From Planctomycetota bacterium (GTDB lineage: Bacteria > Planctomycetota > PLA2 > JAEUHO01): 64,000 bases of DNA. The notes below the pieces were generated by a model, which was given only the letters and a program-made list of their open reading frames with translations, did not search any database and was not told the origin of the DNA. Shown here piece by piece: positions 42,718 to 43,848 of the stretch. The DNA lies in assembly GCA_030066775.1 (NCBI GenBank), contig JASJAY010000073.1, positions 1 through 64,000 of the forward strand, written 5' to 3'. How positions within the stretch are numbered: the first letter of the stretch is position 1; each line of letters starts with the position of its first letter. The position numbers and the translations under genes are program-made.

Positions 42718-43848
42718 TCACGGCGACCAGACGGTCGTGCGGGGGTGGTTGGCGTACCAGCCGTACCACTCGGCCTGGAGGCCGAAGACCGACGTGAGGC
42801 GCGTGGCCTTGAGCGGGCCCCGGACGCAAACGCCGTCCATCGTCCAGAGGCTCTTCGTCTCGGTGTCCCGGCGCCGGCCGTCGCCCGCCTCGCGGAACGT
42901 CAGGGTGCGCGCCCCGACGCGGCGGTCGAACGCCGCGGCGCTCCCCGAGCGCGCGTCGTACCAGACCGTGATGGGCAGGGTGTGCAGCGTCTCCTCGACG
43001 ACCGGATGCCGGGCCAGCGCCTTGAAGGGATAGGCGCGCGGGCTCTTGCCGACGACGACGCCGTACACCAGGTCCCACAGGTGGAGCTGATCGTTCCGCG
43101 TCTGGATCGTCTCGGCGAAGAACTGCGGCAGATGCTTGCCGCCGCGACGGCTCGCCGCCTCGGGGAAGTACCCGCGGTCGCCACGGCGCCCCATGTACTG
43201 CGGATCCGGCATCTGGACGTCGGTCGCGGGATGCGTGGCGAGCCAGTCGGCCCAGGTCGTGTGCCGGCCCGTCGGCACGCGCTCGAGGAACGTGCCCTCG
43301 AGCTCGCCCTCGAAGCACTCGCCCGTCAGGTGCATCCACTTCGACGACGTCTGGTGGTCGTAGAGCACGGCGGTGCCCTGGAAGATCCCGTGGAACCCGA
43401 AGGTGAGCCGGCGACCGCCGACCCGGGGATCGAAGGTGATCCCCGACGAGCAGATCACTCAGTAGGTGACGGCGATGGGCACGCCGTCGATCCGATCGTT
43501 GACCACGTGGTAGTACGAGATCATGCGCACGGGATACGCACGCGCATGCCCGTCGAGCAGGACGCCGTACACCTCGTCCTCGGGCTTCAAGAAGCGCACG
43601 TCCGCGCCGGGCATCGTCTTCGGATCCGTCGCCGGCAGGAAGCGGTCGTGGTCGATGTGGAACTGCGAGCGCGGGAACCGGCCGATGCGCGGCGTGCCGG
43701 GGGGGAGCCCGTCATCGAAGGGCGCGAAGTCCTCGATCCTCGGCGGCTCGCGGTCCAGCAGGTCGCTCGGGGCATCGCCGACCGGCTCGAGCTCCTCGCC
43801 GCACGCGCCGAGAGCCACGGCGAGCAGCAGGGCGATCCACGCGCGCAT
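42718..43848 (-). CDS. DUF3179 lipoprotein with in-frame TGA at the CxxC position (candidate selenoprotein)
   Basis: Read through one TGA (43459-43461), this frame gives a full-length 376-residue DUF3179 protein. Leader MRAWIALLLAVALGAC carries a lipobox. Family landmarks follow on both sides of the TGA: GHARAYPVRMISYYHVVNDR and VPIAVTY before it, then V-I-C-SSG, RLTFGFHGIFQGTAVLYDHQT, HTTWADWLATHP and RAYPFKALA after it. Most members have VTYCPLC, so the TGA occupies the first Cys of CxxC, giving UVIC at residues 130-133. No frameshift or further stop occurs in the remaining 246 codons. Selenocysteine insertion is a reasonable reading; a recent nonsense mutation or sequence error is the main alternative. 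GAGG lies 7 bases before the ATG. The biochemical role of DUF3179 is not established. Confidence 0.75.
43424..43445 (-). promoter_or_regulatory. Stem-loop just downstream of the in-frame TGA (possible SECIS)
   Basis: On the mRNA strand, 13 bases after the UGA, CGGGGAUC pairs perfectly with GAUCCCCG around a six-base loop ACCUUC. Bacterial SECIS elements are stem-loops that begin shortly after the UGA with the apical loop roughly 16-37 bases away; here the loop starts 22 bases after it. Against this, known loops usually have a G in the first two positions, which is missing. Seen: the perfect 8-bp stem. Inferred: any SelB-binding role. Confidence 0.4.

Follow-up and report, generated by a model that had tools for sequence, protein, structure and literature searches.

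The DUF3179 family (PF11376) is listed with the motif UxxC/T in the selenoprotein family tables of two reviews (PMC9312934 and PMC13188914), both of which cite Zhang & Gladyshev 2007, a work that, as cited there, concerns an Olavius algarvensis symbiont. Selenoproteins were reported in Planctomycetes in 2016 (PMC4807772), and the usual distance of the bacterial selenocysteine insertion sequence (SECIS) is 16–37 nt (PMC13188914). Here we describe a DUF3179 gene with an in-frame UGA from a 64,000-nucleotide stretch (the window) of a draft Planctomycetota genome, positions 1 to 64,000 of contig JASJAY010000073.1 (assembly GCA_030066775.1). A preliminary description, made from the letters of the window, had proposed a candidate selenoprotein with a UxxC motif and knew of no report of selenocysteine (Sec) in the family; the first claim is now supported, whereas the second is contradicted by the tables cited above. 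Because the genome carries Sec machinery, TGA and Cys exchange at one alignment column of the family, and the family SECIS covaries, we conclude that the gene very probably encodes a DUF3179 protein, a predicted exported lipoprotein, whose UGA codon 130 is decoded as Sec by SelB and tRNA-Sec via a hairpin just after the codon.

Translation of the minus strand from 43848 to 42718 yields 376 aa with a single internal TGA (codon 130, 43461–43459), the terminal stop also being TGA, and the 246 codons downstream of the internal TGA contain neither a stop nor a frameshift. The PF11376 profile spans the TGA, matching residues 72–371 over nearly its whole length (E = 3.6e-57; 194.5 bits against a curated cut-off of 27). 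The frame had been described as a full-length DUF3179 protein interrupted solely by this TGA and open beyond it, and both statements agree with these results. Ordinary annotation would cut the protein at 129 aa, so the gene model is corrected here.

The preliminary description suggested looking for homologues with TGA at the Cys position. We aligned 46 DUF3179 domains from the window genome and related genomes (45 distinct once a duplicate contig was removed), and the UGA column holds Sec in 29 rows (28 without the duplicate), Cys in 10, His in three, Asp in two, Asn in one and Ser in one; no other internal column of the 46 rows contains an in-frame TGA. The UGA is thus aligned to a Cys conserved in homologues. 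That the family reads VTYCPLC at this site, as had been stated, is right as to the Cys but not as to the motif: close orthologues have VTYUV[IV]C here, with VTYCVVC in one from the same family and VTYCVIC in one that is more distant, whereas VT[YW]CPLC is the motif of other DUF3179 subfamilies, among whose members is the Cys paralogue of the window genome. This genome accordingly holds both a predicted Sec (UVIC) lipoprotein, that of the window, and a predicted Cys (CPLC) lipoprotein (L001), members of distant subfamilies. The DUF3179 tree calls for seven changes of the Sec state, of which well-supported branches make three unavoidable; inside one genus, a Sec gene and a Cys gene are sisters. 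Three further Sec-DUF3179 genes (L007, L008 and L030) read UPLA, UPVA and UPLL, with no Cys three residues after the Sec.

A scan of contigs with one query sequence returned only three relatives. Related genomes commonly hold DUF3179 matches interrupted by exactly one in-frame TGA. In a sample of the phylum, DUF3179 was found in 106 of 294 genomes, about 51 of which had a one-TGA match by a hand count among the matches listed; among these listed matches TAG lay inside two and TAA inside none. The two TAG-bearing matches (G246:C226 with two TAG and G227:C64 with one) may be pseudogenes or use another code.

A hairpin fitting the published bacterial SECIS rule follows the UGA in 24 of the 28 Sec genes, and three more have a stem with mismatches at the same site; none of the 10 Cys homologues has one. 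The hairpins fall into two geometries, with loop (A/G)GUUUC at about +21 or loop CGUGU at +20, in which two-sided changes between species occur at 3 of 7 and 5 of 7 stem pairs, and 94% and 96% of cells are able to pair, respectively. In neither geometry was the covariation score matched by any of 500 shuffles, and sliding the pairing partner abolished pairing. At random positions of the GC-rich window genome, a canonical hairpin anywhere at +16–37 was found in 15% of cases, and one anchored at +20–22 with at least 6 pairs in 1.8%.

The genome also encodes the machinery for decoding. Of selA, selB, selC and selD, for which a search had likewise been advised, all were found: selA scored 504.8 bits, selB 377 bits and tRNA-Sec 70.9 bits (anticodon TCA), and selD, which selA adjoins on contig C206, is a selenoprotein gene itself, its in-frame TGA reading GGUAAK. 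Searches for selB and tRNA-Sec also pick up EF-Tu and ordinary tRNAs, and only matches above the cut-off were counted. Some related draft genomes with a TGA-bearing DUF3179 gene are without one machinery gene, and in one (G016, 77% complete) no selB and no tRNA-Sec match exceeds the cut-off; we put these gaps down to incomplete assemblies.

In the window gene itself, the hairpin CGGGGAUC-ACCUUC-GAUCCCCG begins at the first base after a 13-nt gap from the UGA and its stem is perfect, just as had been noted at the outset; when the peptide is recoded synonymously, about 1% of the resulting sequences form an equally stable hairpin at +20–22. It resembles bacterial SECIS elements (PMC13188914) in position (+21), stem length, stability and stem covariation, but its loop differs from the (A/G)GUUUC of its orthologues, with codon ACC (Thr) where they have GGU or AGU (Gly, Ser). 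The worry raised earlier over a missing early loop G was therefore justified: a SECIS check of this copy finds the expected stem and spacing and no early loop G, and no other gene of the set combines an intact hairpin with this lack. It is the single unexplained feature of the window gene, and it may reflect tolerance of ACC loops, a SECIS that has moved, or failing decoding.

The last of these would be a recent loss, in which a descendant of a Sec gene has suffered a loop change that destroyed SelB recognition, so that the UGA mostly terminates and decay is starting. The isolation of the window gene, alone among 28 Sec genes in having no early loop G, is what such a loss would leave, but we consider it unlikely, as the stem is perfect, the 246 codons remain free of frameshifts and second stops, the coding signal persists downstream, conservation does not differ between the two sides of the UGA, and the selD loop of the same genome likewise begins with ACC. 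Identity to orthologues is alike on either side (for L011, 0.57 upstream and 0.59 downstream), which also disfavors long-standing decay.

The selD loop of the window genome lies at the same distance and reads ACCCUCGA, whereas that of close relatives is CGCCUGGA or CGUCUCGA and that of the relative G001 is CAGCUCGA; because these differ, we regard selD loops as loose in this family. As a separate observation, the selD SECIS elements (L042 of the window genome and L078 of G001) have 8-nt loops (ACCCUCGA, CAGCUCGA, CGCCUGGA) and covarying stems, and those of other families are of the GU type. The shared ACC start prompted us to consider a general switch in SelB specificity, which we rejected because almost every other selenoprotein candidate in this genome keeps an early loop G (e.g., CGGGC, GGUC, GUC, GGC and CGUGU). 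In the winged-helix region of SelB, we found no change unique to the window genome that would explain an ACC loop, and its S-S-R-K motif is present in other SelB proteins also. We tentatively entertain, at somewhat less than even chances, that SelB of this lineage accepts SECIS loops starting with ACC (in DUF3179 and selD) or that the working SECIS has moved to a second hairpin, GGGUCGGC-GGUC-GCCGGCUC. The loop of the latter, at +42, is outside the usual bacterial range, and similar hairpins at +38–55 occur at 0.4% of random genome positions, a figure judged after the fact. Were either the case, the known rules of bacterial Sec insertion would be widened. As a naturally occurring SECIS whose stem is intact but whose loop has no early G, the element allows the stringency of SelB recognition to be tested directly.

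An error of sequencing or assembly, with TGC or TGT as the true codon, is very improbable; the genome is a draft of 227 contigs, but 27 other genes, from other assemblies, share TGA at this column, together with a covarying hairpin. Less credible still is an ordinary nonsense mutation or a pair of separate genes with 129-aa and 246-aa products, since, although a GTG immediately after the UGA could start the 246-aa frame, the DUF3179 match runs through the UGA, the structural model forms a single fold whose first repeat contains the UGA, and TGA is the stop codon that recurs, TAG lying inside two and TAA inside none of the matches listed for the phylum.

With UGA codon 130 read as Sec, decoding by SelB and tRNA-Sec would be directed by the hairpin immediately 3′ of the codon, and the Sec, located where a beta strand ends, would most likely form a selenol/thiol redox pair with the Cys three residues on (U-V-I-C), acting outside the cytoplasmic membrane. 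Because the protein has a lipoprotein-like signal (LGAC at residues 13–16, read by eye from the translation) and a UxxC pair, its likeliest role is that of an extracytoplasmic thiol-disulfide type oxidoreductase. The AlphaFold2 model (pLDDT 90.6, or 97.0 for the first repeat alone) predicts two similar beta repeats, at approximately residues 92–205 and 259–367, with Sec130 closing a strand of the first and Asp at the matching site of the second. The top Foldseek matches were Rieske domains (5cxm for the full model, E = 3.5e-3, TM by target 0.62; 3c0d as best for the first repeat alone, E = 0.16), but none had an E value below 0.001, and searching the PDB by sequence gave no match. Rieske homology was not supported, as hhalign against 21 Rieske domains of relatives gave a probability of 0.1 (on a scale of 0–100) and the cluster ligands C-x-H and C-x-x-H are absent from the DUF3179 alignment; what is shared with Rieske [2Fe-2S] domains is a weak, non-significant fold resemblance with neither a profile relationship nor the ligand motifs, which we treat as no more than a lead.

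Feature coordinates are collected below. The gene is followed downstream by a methyl-accepting chemotaxis protein, with a divergent PEGA-domain protein upstream, and these neighbors give no clear functional hint.

Features of the Sec-DUF3179 locus (positions in the window)
Feature	Position	Strand	Details
Sec-DUF3179 lipoprotein gene (predicted)	42718..43848	(-)	376 aa, UGA at codon 130; from translation, PF11376 match and AlphaFold2
Putative signal peptide, lipobox-like ending LGAC (MRAWIALLLAVALGAC)	43801..43848	(-)	by eye from translation
In-frame UGA, very probable Sec codon, opening the U-V-I-C motif	43459..43461	(-)	alignment column with TGA in 28 distinct genes and Cys in 10 homologues
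SECIS-like hairpin, 8 bp CGGGGAUC/GAUCCCCG, loop ACCUUC (43437-43432)	43424..43445	(-)	loop starts 21 nt past UGA
Second hairpin GGGUCGGC-GGUC-GCCGGCUC, possible displaced SECIS	43405..43424	(-)	loop at +42; -12.6 kcal/mol

We also scanned stretches totaling about 1.7 Mb of the 4.84-Mb window genome (G000) for other selenoproteins. Candidates on L040, L097, L102, L129, L163, L164 (both strands), L168, L215 and L225 include TlpA-like, peroxiredoxin, AhpC-TSA_2 and Thioredoxin_7 proteins with UxxC or a peroxidatic U; that on L168 (11978-12958) is a Thioredoxin_7 candidate (USTC) followed by a short stretch that matches the beginning of the peptide methionine sulfoxide reductase profile. Proteins that we could not place, each with an in-frame TGA, coding-like flanks and a SECIS-like hairpin, lie on L138 (minus strand; no Pfam match), L206 (plus strand, 14354), L207 (minus strand, 9254) and L212 (plus strand, 8404), with TGA contexts GCUGDPGTW, DGHULRDQAW, VWUCTSAT and EYTUSGPT, respectively. 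About 14 candidates in 1.7 Mb would suggest some 40 genome-wide, a large selenoproteome.

In the literature, we found no description of the window DUF3179 member or of its SECIS variant. The gene is nevertheless a well-supported addition to a known selenoprotein family rather than the discovery of one, and it strengthens the view that in Planctomycetota DUF3179 is widespread and often contains Sec. Compared with the DUF3179 selenoproteins already tabulated, the window protein has the same domain and carries Sec in the same type of UxxC motif; the 2007 description stems from a deltaproteobacterial symbiont, whereas this protein comes from Planctomycetota and its gene has a SECIS loop without the early G, and the UPLA, UPVA and UPLL of its relatives go beyond the UxxC/T of those reviews.
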